Assembly (NCBI RefSeq): GCF_964355755.1
Contig: NC_092673.1
Coordinates: 28,277,001-28,341,000 of the forward strand
From: Antedon mediterranea
Taxonomy: Eukaryota > Echinodermata > Crinoidea > Comatulida > Antedonidae
Length of the DNA stretch: 64,000 bases
Reading direction: 5' to 3'
In this document: positions 5,656 through 37,468 of the stretch, in pieces
How positions within the stretch are numbered: the first letter of the stretch is position 1
Layout: the number at the start of each line of letters is the position of its first letter
Notes under the pieces: model-generated
Database searches by the model: none
What the model saw: only the letters and a program-made list of their open reading frames with translations
What the model was told of the DNA's origin: nothing
Made by a program: the position numbers and the translations under genes

Positions 5656-5962
5656 GTAGTAATAGGAATTGGCCGTAGTATTAAAACATGTTTGTCTCAC
5701 AGAAAAGTGTCCACTCGATGTATAACAGATGTGTGAACACCATTTTCTACAATATCACCAGAGTAGAACACCCTTCCTCTTCCCCAAGAAGACACTATGA
5801 AATTTATAAGATGCAATATGTTTTAACTACCATCACCCCTTTGAAGACTATTCCTGAAGAATTCTTTTAATTTAAGGCAACTATATTGTGTCAACTACAA
5901 CAAAAATACTTTATATCTGTCACTATAGTTAATTTATTGACAAAACATTGGTCTGCATCCTG

Positions 5963-13692: not shown

Positions 13693-14525
13693 TTAGCAAT
13701 CTACATCAGTCATAGGTGTCTGTGGTCTGGAGTTCCCAAGATCCGATGCTTCTCGTCTCATCTGACGTTGTTTACGTCTTCGTTCATTCTCAATTTTCAT
13801 TTGAAACTTCTGAATTTTGTCAGCAATCTCAATGTTTGGGCTCAATGTCTTGTTTGCCAAAGGCTCCTTCGTTATCGGCGATGTAATCTTGGACTGAAGA
13901 TAAGCTGTCAATGTAAAACAAAACAGAATTTCCAATTTGTATCAATACAATACAAGAAATATCTGTCTGTCTAGTAAATAGTCCTAAATAGCCTAGCTCA
14001 TTTATTTGATGTTTTTAGGCACATGTGGCCAAGGATTACCAGTAGTAAATAAATCGCTGGATACAGGGGCTATTTTGTGAACCAGTTCACTGGGGTAATC
14101 CCCTACTCGTCTCGAATGATGAACTGGGTTCTTTAATGTGCACACTATATAATATAACTGTGTACACCGGACCTACGGTTTAGTCTTTATCTGAGAAGAC
14201 TTGTTCCACCACCGGAACTGACAGCGGGTCGGCCTAGAACCCATGATGATATTGTTTAGGTACAGTAACCTCTCGGCCATTTAACTCTCTTATATGGTGA
14301 ATATTCATAAAGTGCTTCCAATTGGGTGCACTCTCAGATTTTTTGATAAAGTCTTTGGGAAAAAAATGTCACGGCTTTGTCTTGCCCTCTAGTTTGGTTC
14401 TTACCATCAATATTTTTAAATTCATAAGTAACTCCGTCAGCAGCCGTTACTGGTTGGGTCATTATGCTTCTGCTTATTGGACACAGGAAGTCTGATGGCA
14501 CCGTGACATCGTCAAAAGCACCCCT
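13693..14525 (-). other. Receptor exons 23-24: C-terminal U-box
   Basis: Exons 14525-14405 and 13904-13693 join through D/AYLQSK. The U-box reads VPSDFLCPISRSIMTQPV, DGVTYEFKNIDAYLQSK, ITSPITKEPLANKTLSPN and then IEIADKIQKF. It keeps the Pro-Ile after FLC, the SPIT turn and the L.PN motif that shape the E2-binding surface of U-box E3 ligases. A basic coiled segment (ENERRRKQRQMRRE) and a short tail follow, ending TPMTDVDC. SAM directly before U-box is the order seen in WDSUB1. Confidence 0.9.
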
Positions 14526-17500
14526 CTGAAAAATTGTGACAAAATATCAATATGTACAATCCCACCAATAAATATAAACATGTTCTGATATTTAGAATTT
14601 ACTGTACATAGGTTTGGAACTGACTTAAACACTTTTTTCTAAAATCTAAAAGTCCCCTCGATTCAGTTCATTTATACCAATAAATATATAACATACCATT
14701 TTTTGTTTTTTAACCTCTTTTGCGTTTCGAAGAAAACGTTTAATCTCCGTTTTGTTCAATCCCATATCTTTTAATTCCTCCGCTTCTATATATGGAATGT
14801 CATCAAAAACTACGAATGAATCTTTAAATGATTTGGCGTGACGGTCGAGGTCAATGTTCTTCAAAAATTTAAAAACTTTTTTATCTGAAGAGAATAAAAG
14901 ATCATGAATACCATTATATTGTCCCCTAAAAAAAATATTTTGTTGAAATATACCATTTTAATAAAAAACATAATAGTTATTCACTTTGACCACAAACTAG
15001 ATAAAAAAAAAACAACTTATTTTCCTGAAAAAATGTAATTTAAAGCAAAAAATACCTAAATTGTCCGTCAGACAATAGTTTTTGGTTCAAATTAACCATT
15101 TCTTTTGTATTTTTATAAGTAAAATGATTATTTTTGTTATTTTTTTTTCTACAGAAGTGAATAAGTCAAGTATCATTTATTGTCATTTGTTTTTTTAAAA
15201 AAACATTGAAAATCCGTTTGCTCTGTTGGCGGATGTGCAGATCCAATTATACGCGATGTGGTCTTGACTATTCTATTTAGGTCACGCTTTTCATTTTTCA
15301 TTTTAACTTTATTATTATACAAAAATGGCCAATTAAAAGTCTAATTTTATTAATCTTTATTTTTCACACACATCTTTAAACCCTTTTCATATCTGCATAT
15401 ATTGTTACAAGTTTTAACATGGTTTGATCTCCAGACTTATTACATGTTTTCACACACAGATACATGAACCAGGAGAAAGCATAGTTTGTGCTCTACAGTA
15501 TTGGATTACTATGATTGGTCAGTTTAACAACTTGGGACATCCCGGAACAAAAACTTGTCGGTTTGTGGACCCCTGTGAAATCTCGGGATAAATTGTCTTC
15601 ACACTATGCAAACCTGGTTACAATTACAACTTGTTACTTTTTGCAGGTGTGCGAAGATAGTGTCAGTTTAATGATTGTTCAAGGGGCGTTGTACCTACCA
15701 CCATTGTTCTTTGCTGCTAAAGCCTCATGTCCATGATATGCAAAATTATCAAATCCCCTTATTTGAATCTCTTCATACTTAGGAGGTGGTGTGCTGGGAA
15801 CTAAGTATTCTGGTTCTGCGTGAATGGGTGGTAGTATTGGTCTGTGAAGGCTCGCCACATTTGGTCCAGAAATAGTCGGCAGTTGTTGTCGATTGATAGA
15901 GGGCAACATTTGTGCATACACATTTGTGCCATCCATCTTTACATATTCATTAGCTAGATAAAAACAATGCAATATTAGTTAGAATTTAGCAGTATAGAAT
16001 TTAGAAAGATTATCTTTCGTTTTTATTTATTTTATTCAACCTTATTTATTCAACCTTATTTATTCAACCTTATTTATTCAACCTTATTGATAGAGGGTAA
16101 CCCTAAACAGCATATGCTGACAATCAAGGGGCCCTCATGATGAGTTATGATAAGTGTGTGACAGTGGCTGTGTGTATACTAGTACACCGGGGTAACCCCT
16201 ACTCGTCTCGAAAGATGTACTAGGTTCTTTAAAGTACACGTGAGCTAGATAACACTAGTTTATATACAAAATGGCTGACTGGGTTCATGTTCTATTGAAC
16301 ATGGTGTTTCTATTTTTCTTTTTAATTGTTGATAAGCCTATTTTGGTAGAAAAGCGTTGTACCTGATATCCTCTTTGAGTTCTTATCATCATCTTTGTTT
16401 ACATTTGGCAATTCAACATCATATGGGTGTTTAATACAGTCATCATCAACTAGGTGTTCCGCTGGACCTAGTACATTATATATATCATTATTTTGTACAT
16501 GCACATTATTGCCATTTTCTGTAAAATTTAAAAAAAACACAAATAATAAAATGAATTTATAAAAAGACATTAATTATGTTTTCCTACACAGATAATTTAA
16601 GATTAGAGACATATGATCTGGATGTTTAAATAAAATTTAAGTTTAAAAATGTTTTATACAGTAGCTTATCCAGGGAGGTATTCTCCCTAGCTCATCTATC
16701 TATGCCTGTTAAATTAGGCTCTTGGCTGTTACTAATTTGGAGAATCTGCCACATGAATATTAAATCACTGTCCACACTATCAAACAAAAAAGTGTGATGT
16801 TCCAAAAAATGGTGGTGATATGCTTAAATATGGTAGTGATATGACATGATCATGTCTATATATGGGCACATCACATTTTTGTCACAAAAGTTTTATAGTG
16901 TAGATAGAACATTTCCACCTTTTAACTTTGATCATTCGTCCATTATTTTATCAAAATATTTTGTCTAGTTTGGGTGGGCATCAAGTCTATTTTAAGTCTA
17001 CACTATCAAACTAGTTTGAAAAAAAAATGTGATGTACCCAAACATTGTAGTGATATGCCCAAATATGGGAGTGATATGACAGAGTTTTAGTACCAGAAAG
17101 TACCAACTTTTAATCATTGATTTTAAGATTTTCGATAAAATTAAGTCTTGAGTTAAATCAAGATGTATTGAGGTATACCATTTATGGATTAAATTAAAAC
17201 AGACTTACGGTACTGCACAGTCAATCCAGGTTGTCTGTAAAAAATACCATTATATCAAATAAATCAGGAATAAGAACATATTAAAATGTCCATACAAAAT
17301 TATTTCTAGAAAATAAAAAACTGCATTCTCACTCCCGAGGACGATCAAAGTATATTGATTGAAACGTCGAGAAACTCAACAGTTCTTTTCAGAACTAATA
17401 CACGGGGTGTACCGCAAACTTAATATCAATATTTTAAATATGCAATGTTGTTGTTTTCCTTTTTCCATATATAATACAGTGCAGCGTTAAAATGAGTAAA

Positions 17501-20500
17501 TAGTGTAAATAGGCCAGCAATAGTAACCCCCTACACCTACCCCTACCCCTACCCCCTCCTTCTCCTCAAAACTCACCATTGGCAATAGGACTGACCCTCT
17601 ACAAAAATACCTGCACCGTTGGACCAGGTGCTTTAAAATGTGCATGCTATGTCAAGGAGCAAAGAAGGGCATCTAGTCAGACACTTTTTTTTTAAAACTT
17701 ACCGTTTTCTTTTATTTCCCTTAAATTTTACAATGAGCACTAAAACAGTGAGAGCTACAACAATGAGTACAATTACAATTATAGCAATTGCAGGTACAGG
17801 GAAATTGTGTGGATCATCTTCTATGAGACCTATACAAAATGAAGAATAGTAATGGTATTATTTACATTGATGGTTAGAATTTTTTTAGACACAGTTCACT
17901 CAAAACAAAACTAAAAGGTCCAAAAACCATGGAGGGAACCTCTAACCCCCCTCTGACCCACAAAACAAACAAAAAAGGTATGAACCATGGGGGCGGTTGA
18001 AGTTTAATTACAATTTCTGTAGAATGTGTAGAAGCAAAGTGTATGTGTGTATTTTTTTTCCAATAATATAGATGACAGTAAATCATAATGTTCACCTAAT
18101 TCATGATGCATTTGACCGTTAAAAAAGGAAAAAGCATAAAAAAAAATTAAATAAATTACTTTCAATGTCCAACTGATACACAGGCATGTCAACCTCTGTA
18201 TTTCTTTTCAACCGGTCACTTGTAAGAATGAAAATAACGTTGACGACATTCGTTTTTGATGACCATTCTTTCCTGTCTTTAGTCCATTTAACAGCATTGT
18301 CATTGCCTTCATCTTTAACTGTTAACTGGTCATCATCTGCAAGATTCATGCCTAACAAAGAAAAAATAATAATATAATTAGGGATAATTAATAATTGATG
18401 ATAATTATTGAGAGCTTTATTGAATACAAAATCCCAGTACATAAACAACAAAAACCCCAAAACATGCATCATGCAAATATACAGTAATAGGTCTACCCTA
18501 TTTAGAAGACAACCCTATTGCGGGGACACCACTATTTAGGAGACACACCTATTGCGGGGACACCCCTATTCAGGAGACACCCCTATTGCGGGGACACCCT
18601 TATTCAGGAGACACCCCTATTGCGGGGACACCCTTATTCAGGAGACACCCCTATTGCGGGACACCCTTATTCAGGAAACACCCCTATTGCGGGGACACCC
18701 TTATTCAGGAGACACCCCTATTGCGGGACACCCTTATTCAGGAGACACCCCTATTGCGGGGACACCCTTATTCAAAAGACACACCTATTGAGGGGACACC
18801 CTTATTCAGAAGACACACCTATTGAGGGGACACCCTTATTCAGAAGACACACCTATTGAGGGGACACCCTTATTCAGAAGACACACCTATTGAGGGGACA
18901 CCCTTATTCAGGAGACACACCTATTGAGGGGACACCCTTATTCAGGAGACACACCTATTGCGGGACACCCTTATTCAGGAGACACACCTATTGCGGGACA
19001 CCCTTATTCAGGAGACACACCTATTGAGGGGACACCCTTATTCAGAAGACACACACCTATTGTGGGGACACCCCTATTGCGGGGACACCCTTATTCAGGA
19101 GACACACCTATTGAGGGGACACCCTTATTCAGAAGACACACCTATTGAGGGGACACCCTTATTCAGGAGACACACCTATTGAGGGGCACCCTTATTCAGA
19201 AGACACACCTATTGAGGGGACACCCTTATTCAGAAGACACACGCCTATTAAGACACTTGACTGTGAAGTGAAAAAGGGAGAATATATGTTTTAACACTAT
19301 TGCCAACCCTTATTTAAGGGACACTCCTATTACATTTTGTTTGGTTTGAAAGTGTCCCCTTAATATGGATTTTACTGTAACAGAAATAATGAATAAATGG
19401 TTTCATAAAGTAGTATGTATTACTATTATAAGAAATATACAGTCAACCTAGGAATCGAGTGTTTCATATAAATCCAGCACATTTTGATAAAAGGTTAACA
19501 AATTATATCACAAAATTAGGTTAAAAATTGAAACCAAAGTTGATTGGGGTGACCCCATTTTAGTAGCTATAGTAACAGTGCCATCTCATATAGAACTAAG
19601 AAAATTGCATTGCTAGATGAAAAAGTATACATCTCATGTTACATACAGTATTTATAGTGTTCTCATGTTACATACAGTATTTATAGTGTTGTAGTCTAAT
19701 TTGTAATCAACTCATTTAAATTGATTTTCATAATTAAATATTATAACATAAATAAATGCATTCAGTTTTAAATAAAACTAATTAATTTAGGAAATTTCTA
19801 TTCTGGTTTCTATATTCCTTGACTCTGAATTGTTGTGTCAGTCAGTCCTGGTAGAATTCAGTTGCAACAGCACAACATAGCCTGTTACCAATTGTTTCAA
19901 ACAAGTCAACTCCTCGAAATTGTAATACAGCTCAGGGTACTGTGCTAATGATTTGTGTGAACAACAACTTGATAATTTCTTGAAGGGAATTCACTCTTGC
20001 CTGGTTTCTTTTAAGTTTAAGCTTATTAACAAATGTGATTTGTGATTTCCAGACAAACTACTCCTGTTGAAAAACCCTGTACATATAAAACTCCACTAAT
20101 GCTGTTGGTAAGGTTATTGAGATACCCATAAAACTCTAAGAGAACATGATGTGAAATACCCATGTAAAGTTACCAGTAAAACGCCAAGAGAGCATTTGTA
20201 TGGTGAGTTTTACAGAGAAGGGGAAATACTAAGTAAAGATACCAGTAAGACTGAGTAAGCTTACCAAGTATGAATACAACAAGTTCAACATCAACGTTTA
20301 GAGCGCCAACAGAGATCCTTGTAATAATATTCTGTTTAGGATTATATGCAATGATTACAAACATAATTGTTGTAATCACTTTTTTATCTACTAAAACACT
20401 TTGGAGGAAACAGAATGTGTTTATAATATCACTAGCATTGACTGATGTCATTTCAAGTGGTTCTTTAGCTGTTGAAATTATTTCAGGATTTGAAGAACAA

Positions 20501-23500
20501 GTTGAGCCATTTTCATTAGAAATGTTTGATCCAGCTTTGACATTTTTCTCTTCTGGAACTACCTCTCTATTAACCTTGACTGCGGTTGCTGCAGATAGGT
20601 ATATCGCTTTAGTCTATGCGCCGTTACAATACGATATCATTGTGACTATTAAACGGTGCATTGCTGTGTGCACTTTCCTGTGGATTTTACCTTTTTTTTT
20701 TTACTTATATGCTGGACTACAAAGAACGTGTTTAGTGTTTATGACTAGCTATTTTTTAACTTTCTGCATAGTAAGTTATCTGTACTACAACATCTACAAA
20801 AGTATAAAGTATCAACACAATGTAATAGTTCAGCAAAACTCACAAGAATTAGAACGTTCTAAAAAACTTCTAAAAACATTTTTGATTCTAATTGGAGTCT
20901 TTGCCATTTTTTATTCCCCTGCTTTTGTGATTTGCATTTTATTTGGAGTGAAGTTTTATTCTGATTTGAACAGTCAAAACGTGAGCTTTGCGTACAGTAC
21001 ATTGGTGTTTGCTACGATCAACACCCTCGCTAATCCACTTGTTTACTGGTGGCGGCTTAAAGACTTTCGTTCTGTTCTTGTTGGATATTTTCATGCTTGC
21101 TCTCAAGTGAACCTTAGGCAGAGGTTTAGACAACAATCGAACACTGTCATCCCAATTAATTAAGGACAAAGATAATTAAAACCTAACTGTTCAAATTAGA
21201 GAGTGAGTGAGTGGCCGAGCAGTTACGACAGTTGAACTGTAATTCCGTAGCCATAACATCTGCAAGGGTTCGAGGCTCACTCGCTCCATGGTTCTGGTGG
21301 TAGAACAAGTCTTCTCAGATCAGGACTATAAACTGTAGGTCCAGTGTACACATAGCTCATGTGCACTTTAAAGAACCTAGTACATCTTTCGGAAGAGTAG
21401 GGGGTTACCACGGTGTACTAGTCCACACAGACACCCACGGTCACATACCGGCGACCAAACCGGTAACCATATCAACTCCTTTAAGAGCATGGAGGGTGAT
21501 TGGCCACCCACAAGGGCGTCGGTTCAGGAGAACCAACAACAGCATCCAGCAAAAACTCGTGCCAGGTCCAGAAAAGAGATAGGCACCGCTGGGTTGATAT
21601 GGTATATGCCTGTGTATCGTATCATGATGAGTACTAATGTATCTCACCTGCTACACCTCTACGACCACCCAGGACAACGAACGAACTGTTCAAAGACAAA
21701 GTTAACTATCAAAAATATAATTTAAGCAAATATTTTTTTTTTTTACGTACAACCATCAAACAGATATATGACTGCCATTTTGAAGAACCCCAACCCTGTT
21801 GGTATCACTTAATTTAATGTCTAGTGAGTTATTATTAGCCCTTTAACTTAAAGATATATTGTCCCCCTAAACATTTTTAATTTTTCACATTTTTTATTCA
21901 CCTAATAGTTATTCACTTTGACCAAAAACTGGATCGAAAAAACAATTATTTACCTAAAAAAAGAAATAACTGAAAACAAAAAATACTTAAATTGTCGGAC
22001 AATGGTTTTTGGTTAAAATTAACTGTTTATTTTGTCTTTTTATAAGTGAAATAATTATATTTTGGGTTTTTTTTTTTACAAAAGTGAATAACTGCAAAAT
22101 GGTCTATTTAAAGTCTGATTTTATTAATCTTCATTTTTCATGTTTTTGGGGAACAATACATCTTTAGATAATATAAAAGGATAAAGTAAGTACAATACCG
22201 TTTAGTTTTATTTGGATTTTGTCACTTTCTGTAAAGCTTCTAATCGTCCAGGAACAGATCTTATCACCTACTGTAACTGTAATTATCATGTTGAAATCCT
22301 TATTGCAACTTATGTCATAGGCTGAAAAAAATATTCAATCAAACAAAGGTCATGTAAGGTCAAATGGGTAAAACATAAAGCTCTGTCTACACTATCAAAC
22401 TTTATGTGACAACAAAAATGTGATGTGCCCATATATGGACATGATGATGTCATATAACTACCATATTTAAGCATATCACTACCATGTTTGGGCACTCACA
22501 GTTTTTTTGTTAAACTAATTTGATAGTGTAGACCGAGCTTAAGGCCCAGGCAATCCAATAATTCACCTAATGTACAGCAGCCTTTAATATACTGCCAAAA
22601 ACACTGATAAAAATTAGGCTTAGGTAGGAGCGTATAAGGTGTTATAGGCTGCTTATGTACTGGTTACTAAGTGTGTCTGGGACGGTGAACAGTCAGCTTA
22701 ATATAATCTCTATATATAAATAATAAGTGCACTTGGTTTTGTTATCCAGCATTTTATTTGTAACATTGGAGAAAAAATTGTTTAGTAAAATTGACACACA
22801 AAGCTGCAAAAAGAAATATTGCTATCTTACAAAAAGATTCCTCGGTCTCAATGTAGAACTTGCACATTGTTTTTGTTATTGTTTTTTTGGTTTTTGAAAC
22901 ACTTGTAGTAAAGCGTTGCTTCTCTGTAGGTTTGGTTGGCCTTACAGTTGAGGTTGACCGACTCACAGTTGAAGTTGACCGACTCGCAGTTGAGATTGAG
23001 GGACTCGCAGTTAAAGTTGACTGACTCGTAGTTGAGGTTAGGAGACTTACAGTTGTGGTTGACCGACTTGCAGTTGACCAACTTGCAGTTGAGGTTGACG
23101 GGCTTGCAGTTGAAGTTGACCGACCTGCAGTTGACATTAATGGAACTGTAAACATTGTAGAATGTTGTGGGTTTGTTGGTATGTTGGTAGTTGTTGTCAA
23201 TTTGGTAGTTGTTGGTATTTTGGTAGTTGTTTGTATTTTGGTAGTTGTTTGTATTTTGGTAGTTGTTGGTATGTTGGTTGTTTTTGGTATGTTGGTAGTT
23301 GTTGGTATGTTGGTAGTTGTTGGTATTTTGGTTGTTGTTGGTATGTTGGTAGTTGTTGGTATTTTGGTTGTTGTTAGTATTTTGGTTGTTATTGGTATTT
23401 TGGTTGTTGTTGGTATGTTGGTTGTTGTTGGTATGTTGGTAGTTGTTGGTATTTTGGTAGTTAAATCTGAAATAAATTACCAAAACCTACAATTATTCCC

Positions 23501-24688: not shown

Positions 24689-24722
<34 letters not shown>

Positions 24723-27700
24723 AGTGTACATCTAGCTCATGCGCACTTTAAAGAAGCTAGTAAATTTTTCAAGACAAGTAGGGGGTTACCCCGCTGTACT
24801 AGTACATCATAGCCACTGATCATAACTGTGACCTCTGGGAGACAAGTCTTTTACTGAAAAGGTTACCCAGTATAAATAAATAACAAATTCAAAAACAAAT
24901 TTAGAATACTAGAATATATCCCTAAAAAACAAGTTTCTAAAAATACAGTATCTGAATTGGATTTTGTTTATATTGCTGGATGATTCGTGTCTCATTCCTT
25001 TAAAATGAAATTATTTTAATATGCTAAATAAAATGGGTGAAATACTTACATCACACGAGTCACTATAGTACAACCACGGACTCACAAGGTCTGCATAGTC
25101 TCCATCATTTGTGTAAGAAGTCTCAAGATAGGCATATGAACCTTTAAAAAAATATAATTATTATTGAACATTTTTAATGAGGTCGACTCTAAACACTGAC
25201 AACCCTTTAAATACAAAAAAAGTATGTAAAAGCAACAAAAAATGTATTATTTTTATTTATTTATTTCTGTCTTTATTTTTTTATTTTATGTCTCCTATCA
25301 GATAGGTGGTAATCCCCTTGATACAGGGGCTATTTTGTGAACCAGTTCACCGGGGTATTTCCCTACTCTTCTCCAATAAACTGGGTTCTTTAAAGTGCAC
25401 ACAGGTTATAACTGTGTACACTGGACCTACGGTTTATAGTCCTTATCCGAGAAGACTTGTTCCTCCACCAGAACCCTTGCCGATATTGGCTCTTTAGGTA
25501 CGGTAAACGGCGCCCCTGCCTTAACCGCTCGGCCATTTGACTCTTGAGCACTTTTAGTGGATATCATATTTTTTTTGTCACATAAGTTTGATAGTGTAGA
25601 CAGAGTTTAAGACTTGTACAACATTTGATCTGTGTATGATGCACTACACAGTAAAATATGAAATCTCACCAAACTGGTTTTCAAGTGTATGGTCTACGGA
25701 TGGTCCTGTGCCCTGTGACGGTGTACCACCAGAATTCATAATCCATTCCAAGTCGTCTTCTACACTTTGTTTCCAATCACAAAAACCGTTTTCAAATGTG
25801 CAATAGCCAACATCTTAACAAAGAAGAATATATATTTATATTTTTATTTATTTATTTAACTTCTCACTAAGATGTACATTAGTGAAGGATGGGACCAACA
25901 AGTGGTAAACACCTCTAAAACGATACAGTCCAAATTGCACAATTAGTGTGACAGTGGCTGTGTGTGTGTGTGGACTACCCCCGGGTAACCCCCTACTTGT
26001 CTCGTAAGATGTACTAGGTCTTTTAAAGTGCACATGAGCTAGATGCGTACACTAGACCTACTGTACGATTTATAGTTAATATCCGAGAAGACTGGTTCTA
26101 CGACCAAAACTTAATTACGGTTCCACTGTCTTAATTAACCGTTCGGCCACTCACTCACTTCACAGAGCTTCGAACGACCAATGATAAAAATATGTCATTT
26201 TCATTCATTGATTGTTCAGGGATATTGTGACCTTTTACAAAAGTATACTACTGTATTGTTTGTATAGTGTATGTGATGTTGAGAAACACAAAATGTAACT
26301 TACGGTCTTCGCATAGTGTGGCATTCTCATCCGATGCATCAAAGCAATGATGAATATGATCACATATGTAATCATAATGAATACAAAGACCATCATCACA
26401 TGTAAATATTGGCCCTGTCAATTCACATTCATCCGAAGCTAATGAACATAGAATATAGTACTGTTTTAAACTTTTAATGATTCAATTAATGATAGTTATA
26501 GCATTTCACAATCAATTACTGTAATTTGTGTAAACACCCAGCTTTGAATAAACCCCACTCAACACCCCCCAGGTTGTAATGGTAACGACTCTGTATTTAA
26601 TTTTTTTCTTTTCTTTAGGCACATGTAGCCAACGATTACAAATAGTAATGATCTGCCCTATTAGATAGGTGGTAATCCCCCTGATTTATTCAAATAAATA
26701 TGGTATTTCCACTGCAGAAGTCAATTTTTTACATTGTATTGTGGGATGCTTTCTAAAGTCCTATTACTGTTTAGGTTTTGTGCCTGTGAGTTGTGTAACA
26801 ATAGTTACATTAGTAAATTGGTCAACTTATCTCAATTTCAAACATATTTCACTGTCATCTAAAGTAATTTATTTTTTTGTTTTTATTGTTATTGATATAA
26901 ATAACTTCTTATTACCTTATTGTTTTTAAGGGTCTCGGTTTAAAAGCTTTGATTATTTTTAGTTTCCTTTTCCATAACTTTTTGATGACATATTTGTACA
27001 CATCCTTAGTTTTATGGAATAAATTAATTAAAACCAAGCTTACCAATGATACATCCTGGAGTCAGAGATAAATCGTCCAATCCTAAATAACCATTTTCTG
27101 TAGTAGGGATAACAGCCTCAAAACACACATGGAAAGATTCAGAGGCATTGATACTAATGTCTTCATAGCCCCATTGGCTGTAAGAAGCAAACGTAGACGA
27201 GATTGTCCATAAATCCGATGGTGATGTTGTTCGTAGTATTAAACTAATTTCTCCTGCAGTCGCAATGTTTCGATAATAATAAAATCGGACCTTAAAAACA
27301 AGTATTTTTAAAATATTGACACAAAATAACTAATATTGGATGATGATACATAATGTAAAAAAAATCCTGACAAATCAACAATAAAAAAAACTTTTATTGA
27401 AAGAAATATTTATAGAACAGTACTAGAAAAAATACCCACCCTGTTTGTGGAGTATCAAAAATGTGTATAACAAACAAATGTATAAACCCTTTTCTTTCAT
27501 ATTATATAAATACTAGTTCTTAGCAATCAAAGTAGTGCCTGTTGTTTTAAGTTTGAAATGTGTGAACAATATCATAATTGCAAACAAAAAAAATTTAATA
27601 TTTTCTATGATAAAAAATCAAAGCCTGGATAGAATTTCAAATTGAACATAGAATATAGTAATGTTTTAAACTTTTAACCTTCAATTAATGATGATTAAAA

Positions 27701-30700
27701 TTCGTAAAACACAACTTACAGAGCAATCTATGGAGTTTGCTTCAAACTTTCTTTCGTAACAAAGTTGAGCTTTCTTCCCAACATTCGAAGAAGCATCAAG
27801 TAAAAGGAAGTAACCAGCTGTAAAAAAGTAATGTAAAATAAAATGTTAAAATTGTATTGTTTTCAAGAAAAATGAAGATTAATTAAATCAGACTTTGAAT
27901 AGATTATTTTGTTTGGAAAGTGGAAGTGGAAAATCGGCTTAAGTTAGGCCATCAATTTCAAGGAAGTTATAACATGAGGGTATAAATCAACAAGAAAAAG
28001 TTAGAGAGGGACTATTCCCGATTGGTTGAATAAATATTAAGAAACAATAAAATACTCATACTTGTCTGGTCATTGTGATCTGCAGATGGTCCAACGATGG
28101 ATGATTGACCATATGTTCTTGACCAATCAATTCCATTTGTAACTACATTTGCCCATTCACCAAAATCGGTTTGGAAGCTGTTTCTACCAGGATACATTTC
28201 TGGAAAAATATCAAAATAAAATTTAATCAATTAAATTAAATTTCATAGCATCAGTAGATGATGTTGAAGATGATGTTGACAACTATGATGATGTTGACAA
28301 CAATGATGATGATGTTGACAACAAGGATGATGATGTTGACAACAATGATGATGATGTTGACAACAATGATGATGATGTTGACAACAAGGATGATGATGTT
28401 GACAACAATGATGATGATGTTGACAACAATGATGATGATGTTGACAACAATGATGATGATGTTGACAACAATGATGATGATGTTGACAACAATGATGATG
28501 ATGTTGACAACTATGATGATGATGTTGACAACTATGATGATGATGTTGACAACTATGATGATGATGTTGACAACAAGGATGATGATGTTGACAACAATGA
28601 TGATGATGTTGACAACTATGATGATGATGTTGACAACTGTGATGATGTTGTTGACAACAATGATGATGATGTTGACAACTATGATGATGATATTGACAAC
28701 AATGATGATGATGATGTTGACAACAATGATGATGATGTTGACAACAATGATGATGATGTTGACAACAATGATGATGATGTTGACAACTATGATGATGATG
28801 TTGACAACAACTATGATGATGATGTTGACAACAATGATGATGATGTTGACAACTATGATGATGATGTTGACAACAATGATGATGATGTTGACAACTATGA
28901 TGATGATATTGACAACAATGATGATGATGATGTTGACAACTATGATGTTGACAACAACGATGATGATGATGTTGACAACAATGATGATGATGTTGACAAC
29001 AATGATGATGATGTTGACAACAAGGATGATGATGTTGACAACAATGATGATGATGTTGACAACAATGATGATGATGTTGACAACAATGATGATGATGTTG
29101 ACAACAATGATGACGATGTTGACAACAATGATGATGATGTTGACAACAATGATGATGATGTTGACAACAATGATGATGATGTTGACAACAATGATGATGA
29201 TGTTGACAACTATGATGATGATGATGTTGACAACAATGATGATGATGTTGACAACAATGATGATGTTGACAACTATGATGATGATGTTGACAACTATGAT
29301 GATGATGTTGACAACAATGATGATGATGTTGACAACAATGATGATGATGTTGACAACAATGATGATGATGTTGACAACTATGATGATGATGTTGACAACA
29401 ATGATGATGATGTTGACAACAATGATAATGATGTTGACAACAATGATGATGATGATGTTGACAACAATGATGATGATGTTGACAACAATGATGATGACAT
29501 TTTTTTAAATGATGACAATTATGATGAAAATAATAAATGATTACAAAGCCTTGAAAAAAACCAAACAGACTTACCACAAATTGACCGTTCTTCATCTGAA
29601 TTGTCACCACAATTATTTGCAAAATCACATTTTTCGCCCGAGGGGACGCAATGGATGTTGTCACAGGGAAAGGCATCATTACCGATGTCCTCACACCGGT
29701 CAATGATATCTAAAAATGTATTACAATCATCAGAAAATTAAAATTTTTTTACTAACTGTACGTGTAATAAAAATGGGCAAATGCTTGAAATAAATGGAAC
29801 AACAATAATGTTAGAGGCAGTCGGCCCGGCAACCTCAAGCCTCCTGCCATTTGGTACAGCACTTCAGTTCACCATTTTTAAACCCTGCAACATTTTCAAT
29901 TCCCATTGGGGTCAATACAAAAAAGGAAAACAGGTACTGTCTTCAAAATAACTAAATTTATGTTTAAATATTAGAGGACAGAGAGAAAAAGAAGAGAATA
30001 TAACGTACCACTACACTTTAAGTTGACAACAGTAGTAGCATCACAAATAGTGTTGATGACTCCCACTCCATCATTCCCACAATCCAACAGACTAGTCTCA
30101 TTTCCGAAACACTGAATGTTATCAATTATTGGGTCTTGATCATCAAAAACTAGGTACTCAGTTGGACTTGAATCAGCCTTTCGGTACCCCAGTTGAATAC
30201 AGGCTACAATTCCATCCGTTTCAAGGTCGAAATTACGATTGCAAATGGAGCGCCAGTTACCATTAATGTAGACGTCAATACGACCTTGGTTGGTGTATGA
30301 AGATTGTTGATGTTTGACAATCCGCAGGCTTCCATTCCCTGTACAAATTAAAACATTTATAATGATAATAATCAATTTTTAAAAGAACACAACTTTAGGT
30401 ATTTTCATTAAGGCTATTCTGGAGAAAAATATAAGTATATGATATGACGATAAAGTATGATAAGTATAAACAAAAGTATGTCTTAACTTCAATTAATTGA
30501 CATGACCTAACTTGACCTACGTCGTCATTAAAATATCTATCTCTATATTAATCTTTGTCAGACTGGGAAACCTTATCCTGTGGTGTGCCACAAGGTACTA
30601 AGCTTGGAGAAATTGTGTTCCGTGCCGCCATCAATGATGCTGTGAAAGAAGCAATCTGTGAAAAGTGGAAGTTCGTTGATGATCTTTCACTGGGCGAGGT

Positions 30701-33700
30701 AGTTAACTCTAATGCAACGTCTACACTACAACATGATGTTGATGATTTGGTCGAATGGGCAACCATGAACAAATTTCAATTGAACCCATCAAAATGCAAA
30801 CAACTTAAATTTTGTTTCATGAAGTCGCCACCCTATATGACACCTATCAACATAAATGGCTGTGAATTAGAAACAGTTAACTATGCAAAAATATTCGGTG
30901 TTTTCATCCAGGATGATTTAAAATTTGATGTCCAGGTTGACCATATCCTTAGTAATGGAGGAAGACGTCTACACATGCTTAGCCTTTTAAAACAGTTTGG
31001 GATTCCTTTTGAAGACCTTGCCCAAGTTTACACCACATATGTTAGACCAATTTTCGAGTATGCAATACCAGTATGGCACTCTAGTCTTACTGTTGCGCAG
31101 ACAAATGCCATAGAGTCCATGCAAAAACGTGCATGTAAGATAATTTTGGGTAAAGATTACCAAGACTACAACACTTCCCTTAACATTTTGAATATTAAAC
31201 GACTAGATGAACGCCGCGAAAATATATGTCGTAAATTTGCTACAGATTGTATTACATCTAATAAATTCAAGGATTGGTTTATTAGAAATCCTGAGCTTTC
31301 TGTTAGACTTAGGAAAAGAAAAGAATTTGTTGAGCCCCTATGTAAAACAAACCGATACTATAATAGCCCTAAGCTTTATCTTACACACCTCCTTAATGAG
31401 AGATAGATTTTAACTCAGTAAAACTAAAGACATTTTTGAAGACGTATAAATAAATTAAACATAATATGTGAATATGTACAAATAAATATAATACTACTGT
31501 AAATAACTTAATAACTCCATAATTTTCACATTTTCTAATTTTATCAAATTTCATAATCTTGTAAATAAATAATCAATTTCCATATTTCCCTTATTTAATT
31601 AAAATGTTTAAATTTGTAGATAAATTTTAGCTAAATTTGTATTTTTATGTATTTTTCTTGTGCAATATATTTGATTCCACTTTTATTTGTTCTTTGATTT
31701 CTATGTGAACTTTATATACTGTTTTATGCCTGTTTTAAATGTTTTTATATTTGTAAGTATCATGTAATTCAGCCATTGGCTGCGATTTTGATATGCAATA
31801 AAATGAAATGAAATGAAATGAAATTAATATTATACGCACCAAACTTTTCACATGTATTTGAAAATGAAATGTCATCAATTGCTATGTCGCCTGCGTAGCC
31901 TGAGCCACGCACAGCCTCGATAATAACCTTTAAAAAAAATTATGATGGTTTATTCATAACATTATTTTCATGAAGACTTTTGAACGTCCAACATGATGAT
32001 AAAGAGACCAGCCAACCATTTTAAACAAGTTATTAAACTCTTTTTGCACTATCTAATTTATGGAACCTTAGTCTTTTTATGCAATATTGGACGAGGGAAG
32101 AGATATTATACATTTTGGCATCTAAAGGCCAACCCAGACAGCGTCGTACGACGAGGCCCGACCAGTCGTCTCATCGGGAGGAGAGGATTAAACCTGTTTA
32201 AAGTTCTTCCGACGACCTAAAAACAACACCCGGCGCTATCACAATTCAATTAGCACCAACGAATCAAGACGTTTTGTCTGAGTTGACCCGTTAAATAGTT
32301 GATATAGTATGATGTATTGTGGAAGATATGTAGACATGCACTAATACAAAGATCAATAATTTGGAATTGACATGTTGGTTTATCATCATTACCCCATCAT
32401 GAAACGTGCAAGCTTTTCATTGCTATTAGTAAGGGCATGTGGTGCACTGTGTTGGACGTTCGACTACTGATCGTGAGATCGAAGTTCGAATCCAACTATC
32501 GCCGCATTGCTTGTATCCTTAGGCAAGATACTTTACTTACGTTTGCCTCTCTCCACCCAGGTGTTTAAATGGGAACCCGGTTAGATCAAGACACAACTTT
32601 GCGCTGATTACTAGCATTATGGGAGTATGTTTGCATATGTGTTTGATCCAAAAAAATTGACTGGAGTAATAATGTTCAGCGCTTAGAGGTTTCACAACAT
32701 TAGGCGGTATATAAATCCAGGATATTATTATATTAGCAATCAAATTAAATGCTTTACCTGGAATTTGTAAGTCACATTAAATATTAAGGTTTGTCCTATC
32801 CAAGATGATCCTTTAGTTCCGGCTATGCTCCAGATTTCACTTTCACTTTGATCACTAGCAACGACTACGTAAACGTGTAAAGACCCTATGTGTTGTCCAT
32901 ACATGTTGTAGTAGTACGTCATCTATAACAGAATATACTTTCTAGCATTAGTAGGCCTAAAGCATCTAGAAAATGACACAAAAGTCAGGAGGGGAAAAAA
33001 GCAAAAGGCTTCCTACTTTCTAAGAGTTTTGTGTGGTTAAGAATATCAGATAGTCTATATTGTTTTGACAACTCTTAAAGATGTATTTTCCCCCAAAAAC
33101 ATGAAAAATGAATATTAATAAAATCAGACTTTAAATAGGCAATTTTGCAGTTTTAATAAAGCTATTCACTTCTGTAAAAAAAAAACCAGAAAATAATTAT
33201 TTCACTTATAAAAAGCCAAACGAAATGGTTAATTTTAACCAAAAACCATTGTCTGATAGACAAGTTAAGTATTTTTTGCTTTAAATACATTTTTTTAGAT
33301 AATTTAAGAAAGTAGAATTCAAGAAAGTAAATTTGTCTCACTCTCAGAAAAGGAGTTGGAAGAAAAAAAATCATGCATGCATATGGTTTCGTTTTTGATT
33401 GGCTAGAATTAATTTGTAGTGGTGTCACACAGAGGTATGTTGTTATATGTACGAAATGAAATTATCAAATTTCTTACGGCACATGTAGAATCCAAAGGAT
33501 CTATAACAGGACTAATTATACGGGCGTTGGCATTAGGATCGACGTTAGTTGCTTCAATGTACAGATAGTGGCCAGATGATGAACCGTAAGTGTGGTCTCC
33601 ATATCGAGGACCAGTGTTTGATGAGGCAGTCTGTCCACTCTGCGGTGTCCAATTAAAATCATCTGCAGACATTTGTTGCCATTGACATAGTCGACTGTCT

Positions 33701-36700
33701 GCACTTTCAAAATTACAGGTCAGTGGTTTGGCAGTGCCTGAAAAAAGTGCGTTTATATTGTTAAAACTTCAGAAAGATAGTGGGTCAGGATTTTAAATAA
33801 TATCATGTTTGTGCCAACCTAACTAATGTCTCATATTATTTTTGTCAGTGATTCTCTTTCAGAGAACATGAAAAATAATATTCACATATACTATGTGGTA
33901 GTGCCAGTCTGTACCTACTGTAGGTGGTCCTACTACAGGCCTAGCCTACATTTGTTCATCTGTATGCTAAGTTCTATAGGCCTACTTCACTACATAAATA
34001 CTCTTACTTTTTAGCTAGACATAGTATAGTAAATGTGTTGTACTCACACTGTAAACATACAGACAGCAACCAACTAGCCTAACATAAACTAGGGTCTAGC
34101 TTAGTAAAAGGTAGGCCTAGCTAGGTAGGCATAGTTATACCCACCCAGCATGCAGGGCCTAGCTAATTCATCCACTTGCACAATTTCGGACTTTAGTCGC
34201 AATTTGATACAAATTGCATAACCATGGACTAAGTATAAATTATTAATTCATGCACTTTATTTCAACACAGAAAATAACACACGGAACGAGCTAGTCAAGT
34301 AGCCTAACACCACGCGCACAAACCACCACAACATTAACAACCACCAAAGATAGTTTGCGCACACACGCCCTTCCAGTTAATTCTGATTGGTTAGTAGTTC
34401 ATTACGATGACGTCAAAATTGTTGCTACGAAAACTATTTAAAAGAAAATTTGTGTTAAAAAATTACGTTCGTATATTAACTCCATTAATAGGCTCTGATA
34501 AATATATGAACGTATTTTAACCAATGATTTTCGTCGTAAAACAATTTTGTGGTGGCACAGGTAAAATCTCCGCCATGGTTGAAAAATGAAGACGATCATT
34601 GCAGTCACGAGCCGTAAGACATAAATCAACGGACAAAAGAACGGAAGAAGACACGGTAAAGGCCTAATTATGATTGGGCATAATTGTATGATAATTGTCG
34701 AAAATGAATAGCAAAGCAAATATAAGTTAAAAAGTTCTTATTTCTTCTTTGTTCTTATTGACGTAACAGTTTTAAAAATTATTGTCCCTCTGAAAAATAT
34801 TTTTTATTTCAAATTTGTTTTTGAATGTGTCATTTTATTGTCACATAATACTAGTTAGTTTACCGGAAAAAATGTAATTAAAAGCAAAAAATACTTCAAT
34901 TGTCTGTCAGACCATGGATAAAAGAATTAGAAGGATATGCATCGACGGCGACATCAAACGATTTTACAACGCGCTTGCCTATACTAAAGCACTGCTGCCA
35001 ATCAAACATTGAACTCCGTGTCTCTAACCGCGGCCCTCTGTAGAACGCTGCGAATCAACTGCTACATTTTTTTAGACCAAAACGTAACCATGTAGAAATC
35101 GTATGCGCAGTCTGAATGTTCTATTGACATGTCTGCGTCGATGATTAATTGACAACAAAAATGTATTGCTGACGGCTTACGACTGGTAATTTTAAGTAGT
35201 TGGTAATATTAATAAAATATGCAATTTTTATATTTGAATTATCATTATTTGCCTGCCATCTTCTGTAAAAATTGCGTTAATCTATAGAATATTAAATTAT
35301 GCATTTGACCATGTATGTTGTTAGCGTGTCCGGTGTCCACACATAGAACAATCGTGTTTTTAATATATGGCTAAGCAGTGGTTTCTTCATAAATCTCCTT
35401 AATTATCGATGTAATTATATTTAAATTTTAGTGCCTGGTGATTGGCTAGTGGTTATGTCATCCACATCACATCCAATCACCGGGCATAATTGAATGAAAA
35501 CAGCGATCCCTGATCCGGGATTGGCTGGCTATGTATAGTTGCGATACGTTACACCTAGCGGTCGTTTTGAAAAGTACACGCATGGCAAACTTAATCACGA
35601 ACAAACGAAGTACCTATTATTATTCACACAAGAAGTAAGACAACGGTGAGTATATAGATCATGATTACACGTTGTATCTACTGCACTTAATATTAACCAG
35701 GCCTACCTAGGCAGTATCAATGTCGGCAAATCATATGGTTTACTAGTAAGCCTAGAAGGCCAGGCCTAGTATCCTTGCTGATTTTGTAATTTTACATGTA
35801 GGCTGAGGGCTGAGACAACAAATAGTTATTGTCTCAGATGTAGGGCTACTACAGGTCATAAAATGCTCCTTTAATGTCATAAAAACATTAGCGTAGATCA
35901 ATCGCGGCAGAAACCTGTACTAATTATTACAATTATAGCATCTACAATTCTAAGCCAAACAATAATATAGTATTTTATCTGGTATATTGATGAAGTAAGC
36001 CTACACTAGGGTCTTCACAATAACGTACAATGTAATTTAATAACTGTTTTCAATAAACATTATACTCAGCAGTGGCGTGAGGCAGAGGCCAACAAGGTTA
36101 AATGTCGTTGCACATGTGCAGTAAACAATATATTAGGCACGCGACCGTTTCGTTGTTACCATGCGGTTAATTAAACTGTAACATTGTGACTCGCTAGCTC
36201 TGTCGGCGAGAGTCAAGGAACCCTTGATCTCACGTCGATGCATATCCTTCTATTCTTTAATCCATGGTCAGACAATGGTTTTTGAGTTATAATTAAACGT
36301 TTCTTTTCTCTTTTTATAATGTGAATTTTGTTACAGAAGTGAATAACTTTGATATGAAACAGACTCAATTTAGTTTATTTTATTGCTAAGGTCAAGTCTG
36401 GGGGTCAATTCATCACGCAAGTGTGAAGTATCATATTACAAACAAAAACTTTCATGGACTGTTTTGATAATAATTCAATGATTATCTGACAGCGAAATAC
36501 AGTATTGTCATGGGACTCATAAATACCAGAAATGCAGCTGGTACCTATAAATTATAGTCGAGTTTCCAGTTTAGCAAAAATGTCAAAGTGTAGTACTATA
36601 ACTGCTGCTTGATTTCATCTATTATAAAGGAGTCATCTCGTGTGACGTAGCGGGCTAGAACAGCAGCGTGAAAATCATATCCCGTAGTGAAACAAGATTT

Positions 36701-37468
36701 ATTTGTTTTCCTTTCGGTGCATGCAATTAAAGACTTTTTTGTGGAACGCGGAAACGATTTTGAAGAAAATGTGTCGCAAAAGTTTAATTTTCCGCAATAC
36801 TAAATTTTAAACCATTAGGTTTATTTGACGATTTTTGGTGAATGATGATTTCATTCATAAATAATCAATGATAAATAAAATATAATCAACAGGCAATTAT
36901 TGTCAGACGTACGTGTTTTTTTTACTACAAGAGCACAAAGATATATTTATTGCTTGTACAGTAGTACAATATTCTATTTTCTGCTAAAGTCGGTTTATCA
37001 ACAGAGAGTACAAACTCGCCAATTATTACAGGATGGATACATAAACTATTTTATAATTATCGTGCTTAAAACTAAGTCTCATTTGAGGCTTAGGGAGTGG
37101 AGTTGAAAGAGTCATGAGCTAGTTACAACACTGGGTCAGGATTGAACCCGGACCTTGAGATTGAGAGGCAAGCACAGCTCCACGTCTCTATAACGGGGAT
37201 TCGTATAAAGATAGAGCATGATAAATGTAATACGTATACTAAGAGATATATATATTCCCAGGGGCCTAATATATCCCGATAAAAACTCAATGATAAAATA
37301 TAAGAGTGATAAAAATAATTTATAATTGACGACGCGAGCTAGCACCGATGGATTAATAACGTAACATAAAATGATAATAACGGAATGTTTCTTACCATTG
37401 ACGATATCTGTGAAATAAGATGATAAAAGAAAACAGATGCCACCGAAGACAACCCGAAAAGCACCCAT
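13693..37468 (-). CDS. Transmembrane MAM/SRCR/LDLa receptor with cytosolic SAM and U-box
   Basis: 24 coding exons in transcript order: 37468-37396, 33737-33478, 32922-32758, 31927-31840, 30338-30009, 29709-29575, 28199-28062, 27817-27720, 27290-27044, 26438-26304, 25813-25670, 25141-25050, 24515-24342, 23991-23904, 23466-22831, 22321-22199, 18351-18160, 17829-17703, 17234-17209, 16518-16363, 15953-15695, 14925-14697, 14525-14405, 13904-13693. They total 4248 nt (1415 aa) and every junction is in phase with AG/GT borders. Order of parts: signal peptide (1-24), MAM (about 29-194), SRCR (196-305), LDLa (306-350), MAM (351-511), LDLa (512-556), MAM (557-722), Thr/Ser-rich stalk (723-920), CUB-like segment (about 925-1040), TM helix (1053-1073) followed by KFKGNKRKR, a tail with YVKM, YAQM and PPKY, SAM (about 1240-1300) and U-box (about 1313-1380). 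Inferred role: a surface receptor coupling ligand binding to ubiquitination. An upstream in-frame Met at 37519 exists, but the start at 37468 gives the better signal peptide. Confidence 0.88.
13990..14292 (-). repeat. SINE family A (subfamily 2) in receptor intron 23
   Basis: Minus-strand copy related to 25297-25552. Shared blocks include GGGGCTATTTTGTGAACCAG, GTAATCCCCTACTCGTCTCG and the tRNA-like end CGGCCATTTAACTC. Confidence 0.7.
14697..14925 (-). other. Receptor exon 22: SAM domain
   Basis: Reads VFKFLKNIDLDRHAKSFKD, then PYIEAEELKDMGLNKTEIKR and FLRNAKEV. The LKNIDLDRHAKSF helix and the LKDMGL core followed by a basic helix match the SAM fold. SAM domains often oligomerise, which here would cluster the U-box. 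Confidence 0.85.
14928..15370. repeat. MITE family 2 copy (receptor intron 21)
   Basis: Shares a long core with 21832-22178, including TAGTTATTCACTTTGACC, a TTTAAAGCAAAAAATAC-type block, the GACAATAGTTTTTGGTTMAA block and ACAGAAGTGAATAA. The ends are less clear than in the best copy. Confidence 0.7.
16025..16090. repeat. 14-bp tandem repeat
   Basis: Four units of CCTTATTTATTCAA in a receptor intron. Confidence 0.85.
16100..16265 (-). repeat. SINE family A copy (receptor intron 20)
   Basis: Contains the family blocks GTGTGACAGTGGCTGTGTG, ACTAGTACACCGGGGTAACC, CTACTCGTCTCGAAAGATGT and ACTAGGTTCTTTAAAGTACA. Confidence 0.8.
16765..17078. repeat. Two MITE family 1 copies (receptor intron 19)
   Basis: A near-complete copy at 16765-16906 is followed by a left-half copy at 16992-17078. 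Both carry CTACACTATCAAAC-type ends and the GGTAGTGATATG motif. Confidence 0.8.
17703..17829 (-). other. Receptor exon 18: transmembrane helix
   Basis: A run of 21 hydrophobic residues (AIAIIVIVLIVVALTVLVLI plus V) follows EDDPHNFPVP and is followed by KFKGNKRKR, a good stop-transfer signal. This fixes the orientation: modules upstream are extracellular, SAM and U-box are cytosolic. Confidence 0.93.
18497..19246. repeat. 34-bp minisatellite, about 22 copies
   Basis: Head-to-tail units of 34 bp (GGGGACACCCTTATTCAG followed by GAGACACCCCTATTGC) with variants CCTATTGAGG and AGAAGACACACC. It lies in the receptor intron that also hosts the GPCR. Flanks carry ACAGTAATAGG on the left and ATGGATTTTACTGTAA at 19361-19379 on the right, so it may lie inside an element with short inverted ends. 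34 is not a multiple of three, and no coding role is likely. Confidence 0.93.
19247..20269. other. Sequence between the 34-bp array and the GPCR
   Basis: AT-rich intron sequence with a two-copy 30-bp tandem (about 19631-19690, CTCATGTTACATACAGTATT core). The last 250 bp before 20270 would contain the GPCR leader and promoter. Nothing else is recognised. Confidence 0.5.
20270..21163 (+). CDS. Intronless rhodopsin-family GPCR nested in the receptor intron
   Basis: 297 codons in one exon with seven hydrophobic segments. Class A landmarks: N31 in TM1, LALTD (55-59) in TM2, DRY (109-111) after TM3, W138 in TM4, FAIFYSP in TM6 and NPLVY (255-259) in TM7. There is a possible N-glycosylation site at N2. 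The second extracellular loop is very short and no cysteine is seen at the top of TM3, so the usual TM3-ECL2 disulfide is missing. These traits resemble the melanocortin/EDG/cannabinoid/adenosine group, but the ligand cannot be called. It lies on the strand opposite the receptor gene, between receptor exons 17 and 16. Intact and intronless, it could be a lineage-specific retro-derived or tandemly expanded receptor. Confidence 0.88.
   Translation: MNTTSSTSTFRAPTEILVIIFCLGLYAMITNIIVVITFLSTKTLWRKQNVFIISLALTDVISSGSLAVEIISGFEEQVEPFSLEMFDPALTFFSSGTTSLLTLTAVAADRYIALVYAPLQYDIIVTIKRCIAVCTFLWILPFFFYLYAGLQRTCLVFMTSYFLTFCIVSYLYYNIYKSIKYQHNVIVQQNSQELERSKKLLKTFLILIGVFAIFYSPAFVICILFGVKFYSDLNSQNVSFAYSTLVFATINTLANPLVYWWRLKDFRSVLVGYFHACSQVNLRQRFRQQSNTVIPIN
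21200..21470 (+). repeat. SINE family A, best copy with tRNA-like head
   Basis: The head GAGTGGCCGAGCAGTTACGA, then GGGTTCGAGGCTCACTCG about 45 bases later, resembles a tRNA-Ser/Leu A box and B box. The body includes TCTGGTGGTAGAACAAGTCT, GTAGGTCCAGTGTACAC, AAAGAACCTAGTACATC and GGGGTTACCACGGTGTACTA. Confidence 0.85.
21832..22178. repeat. MITE family 2, best copy
   Basis: About 345 bp with ends TTAAAGATATATTGTCCCCC and GGGGAACAATACATCTTTA, which are inverted repeats. The core has TAGTTATTCACTTTGACC and GTGAATAACTGCAAAATGG blocks. It ends about 20 bp from receptor exon 16. Confidence 0.82.
22377..22541. repeat. MITE family 1, full-length copy (receptor intron 15)
   Basis: Ends AAGCTCTGTCTACACTATCA and TGATAGTGTAGACCGAGCTT. 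The two halves can fold into a long hairpin. Confidence 0.88.
22831..23466 (-). other. Receptor exon 15: Thr/Ser-rich repeat stalk
   Basis: 212 codons. The first half is about 16 units of an 18-bp repeat coding (K/N)IPTTT. The second half is built from STSTAS/STSTVSR-type repeats of about 21 bp. The composition suggests an extended O-glycosylated stalk like a mucin. The exon ends with CKFYIETEESF, the start of the CUB-like segment. Confidence 0.85.
24012..24150. repeat. MITE family 1 copy (receptor intron 13)
   Basis: Ends AAGCTCTGTCTACACTATCA and TTGATAGTGTAGATAGAGCT. Confidence 0.88.
24645..24865 (+). repeat. SINE family A copy (receptor intron 12)
   Basis: Contains AAGGGTTCGAGGCTCACTCG (B box region), TGGTGGTAGAACAAGTCTTC and GTAGGGGGTTACCCCGCTGT. 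The A box end is missing. Confidence 0.82.
25290..25612 (-). repeat. SINE family A subfamily 2, followed by a MITE family 1 end
   Basis: The SINE (25297-25552) has GATACAGGGGCTATTTTGTG and the tRNA-like end CCGCTCGGCCATTTGACTC. At 25567-25612 only the terminal TTTGTCACATAAGTTTGATA of a family 1 MITE remains. Confidence 0.75.
25855..26165 (-). repeat. SINE family A copy (receptor intron 10)
   Basis: Contains GTGACAGTGGCTGTGTGTGT, GTAACCCCCTACTTGTCTCG and the tRNA-like end ACCGTTCGGCCACTCACTC. Confidence 0.8.
26304..26438 (-). other. Receptor exon 10: LDL receptor class A repeat 2
   Basis: Phase 1-1 exon of 45 codons with cysteine spacing and CDHIHHCFDASDEN typical of a calcium-binding LDLa module. 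Confidence 0.92.
27044..28199 (-). other. Receptor exons 7-9: second MAM domain, N-terminal cysteines missing
   Basis: Exons 28199-28062, 27817-27720 and 27290-27044. The fold is recognisable from FGEWANVVTNGIDWSRTYG, GYFLLLDAS, VRFYYYRNIATAGEISLILR and NGYLGLDDLSLTPGC. The usual first cysteine pair (CxFE...C.W) is replaced by FQTDFGEWANV. Confidence 0.85.
28250..29505. repeat. 21-bp minisatellite, about 60 copies (receptor intron 6)
   Basis: Head-to-tail GATGATGATGTTGACAACAA plus T, with frequent variants AAC(A/T)ATG and AAGGATG and a few 24-bp units. Since 21 is a multiple of three, long open frames appear on both strands (Met/Leu/Thr-rich and His/Cys/Gln-rich). They are byproducts, because the array sits between two phase-matched exons. 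Confidence 0.95.
29575..29709 (-). other. Receptor exon 6: LDL receptor class A repeat 1
   Basis: A phase 1-1 exon of 45 codons with six cysteines and the calcium-binding end CDFANNCGDNSDEE. The adjoining intron 6 holds the 21-bp minisatellite 70 bp away. Confidence 0.92.
30009..30338 (-). other. Receptor exon 5: SRCR domain
   Basis: A single phase 1-1 exon of 110 codons. It opens GSLRIVKH, continues GRIDVYINGNWRSICNRNFD and ends DATTVVNLKCS, with six cysteines in the group A pattern. Symmetric phase 1-1 borders make it a classic shuffled module. Confidence 0.93.
30540..31830 (+). mobile_element. 5'-truncated non-LTR retrotransposon with RT domain end
   Basis: An open frame at 30555-31406 begins in the reverse transcriptase region: CGVPQGTKLGEIVF, then KFVDDLSL (the YxDD-type catalytic box as FVDD), LNPSKCKQLKF and a C-terminal tail (YVRPIFEYAIPVWH, MQKRACKIILG). 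The 3' UTR ends in ATGAA/TGAAA repeats at 31801-31823, a tail common in L2/CR1-type LINEs. It is inserted in receptor intron 4, opposite strand, with the tail only about 16 bp from the exon 4 donor. The 5' part is missing, so it is not autonomous. Confidence 0.85.
32425..32730 (+). repeat. tRNA-derived SINE (receptor intron 3)
   Basis: A tRNA-like head (GTGGTGCACTGTGTTGGACG, then GAAGTTCGAATCCAACTATC as B box) is followed by TTAGGCAAGATACTTTACTT and a tail GGCGGTATATAAATCCAGGA. The head-plus-body layout is typical of SINEs. Confidence 0.7.
33075..33310. repeat. MITE family 2 copy, truncated (receptor intron 2)
   Basis: Inverted relative to 21832-22178. It begins TTAAAGATGTATTTTCCCCC and runs to TTTTTGCTTTAAATACATTT, then stops before the other end. 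Confidence 0.75.
34771..36410. repeat. MITE family 2 copy split by a nested element
   Basis: The left part (34771-34911) ends in TACTTCAATTGTCTGTCAGA. The right part resumes at 36268 with TCAGACAATGGTTTTTGAG, matching the next part of the intact copy at 21832-22178. Confidence 0.75.
34912..36267. mobile_element. 1.36-kb inverted-repeat element flanked by TCAGA
   Basis: Ends CCATGGATAAAAGAATTAGA and TCTATTCTTTAATCCATGG are inverted repeats, and AGGATATGCATCGA also recurs inverted. TCAGA occurs on both sides (34907-34911 and 36268-36272), consistent with a 5-bp target duplication. No transposase frame is present, so it would be non-autonomous. The superfamily is not assigned. Confidence 0.75.
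36996..37190 (-). repeat. SINE family B, copy 1
   Basis: The minus strand begins ACGTGGAGCTGTGCTTGCCT and has GTCCGGGTTCAATCCTGACC as a B box, then a body with ACTCCACTCCCTAAGCCTC and TCCTGTAATAATTGGCGAG. Shared with 56340-56485 and 60683-60840. Confidence 0.75.
37396..37468 (-). other. Receptor exon 1: signal peptide
   Basis: Encodes MGAFRVVFGGICFLLSSYFT plus DIVN, a short basic start followed by a hydrophobic core, ending in phase 1 with donor GTAAGA. It joins to exon 2 as N/GTAKPLTC. Confidence 0.75.

Follow-up and report, generated by a model that had tools for sequence, protein, structure and literature searches.

In a 64,000-nucleotide window of the genome of the crinoid Antedon mediterranea (contig NC_092673.1, positions 28,277,001 to 28,341,000), the minus strand carries a predicted gene of 24 exons that encodes MAM, SRCR and LDLa modules, a single membrane helix, and a cytosolic SAM domain followed by a U-box (Table 1). 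We consider it reasonably likely that the product is a single-pass (type I) surface receptor, in which outer binding modules are joined to an inner SAM-U-box ligase that works through clustering. The receptor probably doubles as an E3 ligase, its SAM-U-box tail being WDSUB1-like.

The exons were placed by eye from the coordinates of a first-pass annotation of this DNA, before any database record was consulted. The chain runs from 37468 to 13693, end coordinates that proved exact, and stays in phase throughout, with GT-AG borders at 23 of 23 introns, no internal stop and TAA as terminal codon, which bears out the 24 minus-strand exons without phase error described in that annotation. The rebuilt long form comprises 1401 codons including the stop (1400 aa) rather than the 1415 first counted. 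Once the hand model was complete, it was matched to a protein of A. mediterranea at NCBI, 'MAM and LDL-receptor class A domain-containing protein 1-like isoform X2' (1286 aa), which is letter for letter the hand-built chain with the start of exon 15 at 23124 instead of 23466 and which represents a second gene model with the same 24 exons; the repetitive first 342 bases of exon 15 (23466-23125) are absent from it. Extra NCBI isoforms are made on transcript evidence, and the number X2 implies that a further form exists, which may be the 1400-aa long form.

Several introns of the gene hold sequences of other kinds. Antisense within the 3847-base intron 16 lies an intronless rhodopsin-type receptor frame (20270-21157, plus strand; 7tm_1, 95 bits), intron 4 contains a reverse-transcriptase-like fragment (30552-31403, plus strand; RVT_1, 27.5 bits, just below the cut-off of 29.6), and intron 6 contains short units repeated in tandem over a long stretch (28250-29500), with several frames open on both strands. 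Elsewhere in the window, a DAXX histone-binding domain (1583-3211, plus strand; 86.2 bits) likely marks a DAXX gene located past the point where the receptor gene ends on its 3' side, a tandem repeat at 5034-5696 has open frames on both strands, and SCYL1-like frames were recognised by eye at about 41500-50100 on the minus strand; of the two that were scanned, one gave HEAT at 18.5 against a cut-off of 23.5 and the other gave no match.

Table 1. Exons of the Antedon mediterranea receptor gene, with the protein features that they encode, positions in the window and the basis of each assignment.
Feature	Position	Strand	Basis
Exon 1: start codon and likely signal peptide	37396..37468	-	by eye
Exons 2-5: first MAM (residues 32-192) and SRCR (208-305)	30009..33737	-	Pfam
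Exon 6: first LDLa	29575..29709	-	Pfam, two LDLa stretches; exon read from sequence
Exons 7-9: second MAM	27044..28199	-	Pfam, three MAM stretches; exons read from sequence
Exon 10: second LDLa (residues 523-550)	26304..26438	-	Pfam
Exons 11-14: third MAM	23904..25813	-	Pfam; exons read from sequence
Exon 15: Thr/Ser stalk	22831..23466	-	gene model, NCBI comparison
Exons 16-17: membrane-proximal segment, no Pfam match	18160..22321	-	Pfam, 0 families
Exon 18: transmembrane helix (residues 936-959, 1286-aa form) and basic stop-transfer stretch	17703..17829	-	hydropathy
Exons 19-21: most of the cytosolic linker	15699..17234	-	gene model, motif count
Exon 22: SAM domain	14697..14884	-	Pfam
Exons 23-24: U-box (residues 1185-1253, 1286-aa form), basic C-terminal tail and stop	13693..14525	-	Pfam

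The extracellular part consists of modules in the order MAM-SRCR-LDLa-MAM-LDLa-MAM, followed by a mucin-like Thr/Ser stalk of variable length. In Pfam, MAM is matched in three stretches (298.6 bits), SRCR with 57.5 bits and LDLa in two stretches (33.4 bits), and all five modules named in the first-pass annotation (MAM, SRCR, LDLa, SAM and U-box) are matched. At the N-terminus, where a signal peptide appears likely by eye, no hydropathy window exceeds 1.6. A CUB domain suspected by eye in the membrane-proximal exons 16-17 was dropped when Pfam returned no family for them. The region from stalk to linker found no relative by blastp among the 120 other proteins compared (best E 0.64), and an NCBIfam scan gave no match.

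Hydropathy analysis of the 1286-aa form reveals one strong membrane helix: all 17 windows above 1.6 start at residues 931-947, with a maximum of 3.7. The helix sits between the outer and the cytosolic domains, in agreement with the membrane-receptor layout proposed earlier. Between it and the SAM domain, a linker of 154 residues contains eight tyrosines and, among the eight motif types tried against shuffles, two YxxM motifs where 0.11 are expected (P 0.0038, uncorrected for the eight motifs), one YEEI-like motif (P 0.023, uncorrected), one PPxY (P 0.070), four Yxx-hydrophobic (P 0.079), one YxN (P 0.62) and one YxxP (P 0.55); ITIM-like and NPxY motifs number zero each in the linker, and six of the eight types are not enriched at P 0.05. 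On these uncorrected statistics, the motifs are a hint of possible kinase docking, and kinases may act at the YxxM and YEEI sites.

The tail is where the proposed enzymatic function would reside. Its U-box, whose score had been singled out beforehand as one of two points on which the reading could fail, lies far above the Pfam cut-off (57.9 bits against 21.4; E 1.1e-15). The SAM domain that precedes it is matched more modestly: in the full-length Pfam scan SAM_2 passes (23.5 bits, cut-off 20.5) while SAM_1 (22.3 against 23) and SAM_TNK (23.1 against 25) fall just under their cut-offs, and both of the latter pass when the exon is scanned alone (27.8 and 30.4, respectively). The order SAM then U-box in the cytosolic tail thus stands as first described. 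When the SAM exon was searched against the PDB, four of the eight rows proved to be SAM domains, at weak significance throughout, with two rows for SHANK2 (E 0.036 and 0.26) and one each for tankyrase-1 (0.25) and DGK delta (1.1). The SAM domains of these three proteins polymerise. The remaining rows were set aside, namely two for IcmE/DotG, whose E of 6.6e-05 applies to the chain as a whole and comes from repeats aligned in pieces, none of them significant by itself, one for a designed protein (E 0.67) and one for a disulfide isomerase (E 1.2). The structure predicted for the exon 22 SAM alone has a mean pLDDT of 59.6, too poor for a fold search. No second SAM-U-box copy was found within the window by tblastn with the 1286-aa form at E up to 10.

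Alignment of the U-box to that of CHIP gives 23 identities in 65 columns (score 103, shuffle maximum 44), and to that of WDSUB1 23 identities in 57 columns (score 122, shuffle maximum 55), the CHIP sequence being confirmed and the WDSUB1 sequence provisional; with that proviso, the receptor U-box aligns better to WDSUB1 than to CHIP. Ligase activity of the predicted U-box is likely. It is nevertheless conceivable, if improbable, that the locus is one gene whose U-box serves as a scaffold or weak E2 binder in an adaptor-type receptor rather than as an active ligase. This alternative draws on two positions, which we take to be Phe237 and Arg272 in CHIP numbering, where the receptor carries Arg and Lys. 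Both CHIP residues are important in contacting the E2 and in activation, so that E2 binding or activation by the receptor U-box may be weak. However, the match to the Pfam profile, which has 73 positions, extends from position 1 to position 70, and the same two columns vary among other U-boxes, being Leu and Gln in plant PUB12 and presumably Arg and Asn in WDSUB1, on the provisional sequence. A probably active ligase is the reading retained here.

As to whether the receptor and its tail belong together, we conclude with considerable confidence that there is one gene and not two. Gene-model pipelines can fuse neighbours, and the model could in principle combine a membrane or secreted MAM/SRCR/LDLa protein with a separate SAM-U-box gene; to this we assign a low probability. 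Read-through of exon 21 meets a stop at most six codons past the donor and an AATAAA lies at 15361 in intron 21, as two genes would allow, but the open frame of exon 22 has no ATG before SAM, so that no product that includes the complete SAM can begin in this exon. In addition, the hand model and NCBI give the same chain with every junction in phase, and introns 17-23, in the tail region, are short, ranging from 171 to 814 bases. SAM-plus-U-box sequences without WD40 are on record, two of them from sponges, which lends the two-gene reading some plausibility, and a two-SAM form is on record from Monosiga (the U-box census, PMC3087547); against two genes, no free-standing SAM-U-box protein emerged when the tail was compared with proteins of 266-847 aa. 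In that search the one match among 306 candidates was an ENA-derived VWA plus U-box protein, rejected as a relative since the common part is the U-box only. The relative searches were word-based, needing shared 5-residue words, and are insensitive: WDSUB1, the positive control, whose length we take to fall within the 266-847 aa range, was not returned either, so the absence of matches is weak evidence. Against proteins of 770-2450 aa, the sole match of the tail (residues 1060-1400) among 4016 candidates was the Antedon record itself.

The ectodomain, by contrast with the tail, has many matches: 398 were found among 3456 candidates, and 120 of these matches were listed. The MAM and LDLa modules are shared with MALRD1/Diet1-type proteins, from which the NCBI name is taken, but these differ in that among the 120 matches listed SRCR occurs in two, the Antedon receptor and a protein of Anneissia japonica, and a U-box in one, the Antedon receptor itself. 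The Anneissia ortholog, the one close ortholog listed, has the same MAM, SRCR and LDLa modules in Pfam; its identity to the Antedon protein is 60% across 99% of the ectodomain and 54% across the entire alignment. The protein listed, of 998 aa, stops some 75 residues past the stalk, a point that also speaks for two genes; its last 74 residues show no significant similarity to the segment that precedes the membrane helix in Antedon (shuffle P 0.11), it has no membrane helix (no hydropathy window above 1.42), and Pfam matches neither SAM nor U-box in it. Two crinoids thus have the ectodomain in common, and Antedon is to date the one in which the tail has been seen. One might suppose from this contrast that the tail was added recently in the Antedon line and is made in some transcripts only, the main product being secreted or tailless as listed for Anneissia, which we regard as the least probable of the alternatives. 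The Anneissia entry is an isoform X2 that stands for a cluster of six sequences on a 378,718-base contig, so other isoforms or a cut model are possible, and the searches that failed to find the tail outside Antedon depend on shared 5-residue words. Its ectodomain without a tail fits capture of a tail by a receptor gene, as the first-pass annotation proposed, a shorter isoform and a broken model equally well.

Among known proteins, WDSUB1 most closely resembles the tail, with a SAM directly before a C-terminal U-box; the likeness is one of domain order (PMC3087547) and of a provisional WDSUB1 U-box sequence. WDSUB1 has seven WD40 repeats (PMC3087547, in excerpt), whereas the Antedon protein has an extracellular receptor part and a membrane helix in its N-terminal portion, and Pfam matched no WD40 family to it at E up to 1 in the full-length scan or at E up to 10 in a further scan. 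The general plan of the receptor is found in membrane RING ligases. RNF43 and ZNRF3 are of this kind, with an extracellular domain, one membrane helix and a cytosolic E3 domain, and so is the PA-TM-RING family (GRAIL, RNF13 and others; PMC4021871, a review that puts at 49 the human RING proteins for which membrane domains are predicted). These ligases differ from the receptor in having a RING instead of a U-box and a PA domain instead of MAM, SRCR and LDLa, and the SAM is extra in the receptor; neither a PA domain nor a RING finger is among its Pfam matches. A U-box-type ligase at a receptor tail, as proposed for Antedon, is also seen in Act1/TRAF3IP2 with the IL-17 receptors. Act1 is a soluble adaptor recruited to, and hence separate from, its receptor, whereas in Antedon the predicted ligase domain and the receptor form one chain. 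Act1, which has a divergent U-box, is listed beside seven main human genes in the animal U-box census, in the main text of which 'transmembrane' and 'Strongylocentrotus' appear 0 times, so the census may cover echinoderms poorly (PMC3087547). No named family with this architecture was met in the protein and literature searches run, as the first-pass annotation had anticipated: the open-licence literature searched, outside which most subscription papers lie, yielded no description of a one-chain U-box receptor E3 and no match to the phrase 'transmembrane U-box'.

We propose that the ectodomain, raised on its mucin-like stalk, would bind a ligand or a neighbouring cell, and that this binding, or SAM-mediated clustering, would gather the U-boxes at the membrane, where they could recruit ubiquitin-charged E2; the receptor itself or membrane partners might then be tagged for endocytosis or degradation. 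That ligase action would follow upon ligand binding is something we purely infer. In echinoderms, SRCR receptors have frequently been associated with immunity, which makes the ligand of this receptor of interest; a literature search for SRCR with MAM in echinoderm immunity gave astacin peptidases only. Through its binding to whirlin, WDSUB1 increases in cells the ubiquitination of the membrane protein USH2A, a precedent for a SAM-U-box ligase acting on a large membrane protein (PMC10238197, in excerpt).

In all, a crinoid receptor class that unites MAM, SRCR and LDLa modules, a membrane helix, a tyrosine-motif linker and a SAM-clustered U-box ligase in one chain is put forward tentatively, with slightly less than even confidence. 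The public record names the protein without mention of the U-box. Receptor-like membrane proteins with a built-in E3 are known with RING domains (excerpts of PMC4021871); if the present reading is true, the U-box too would be wired directly to the animal cell surface, and the receptor would offer a self-contained system to test how clustering turns a U-box on.
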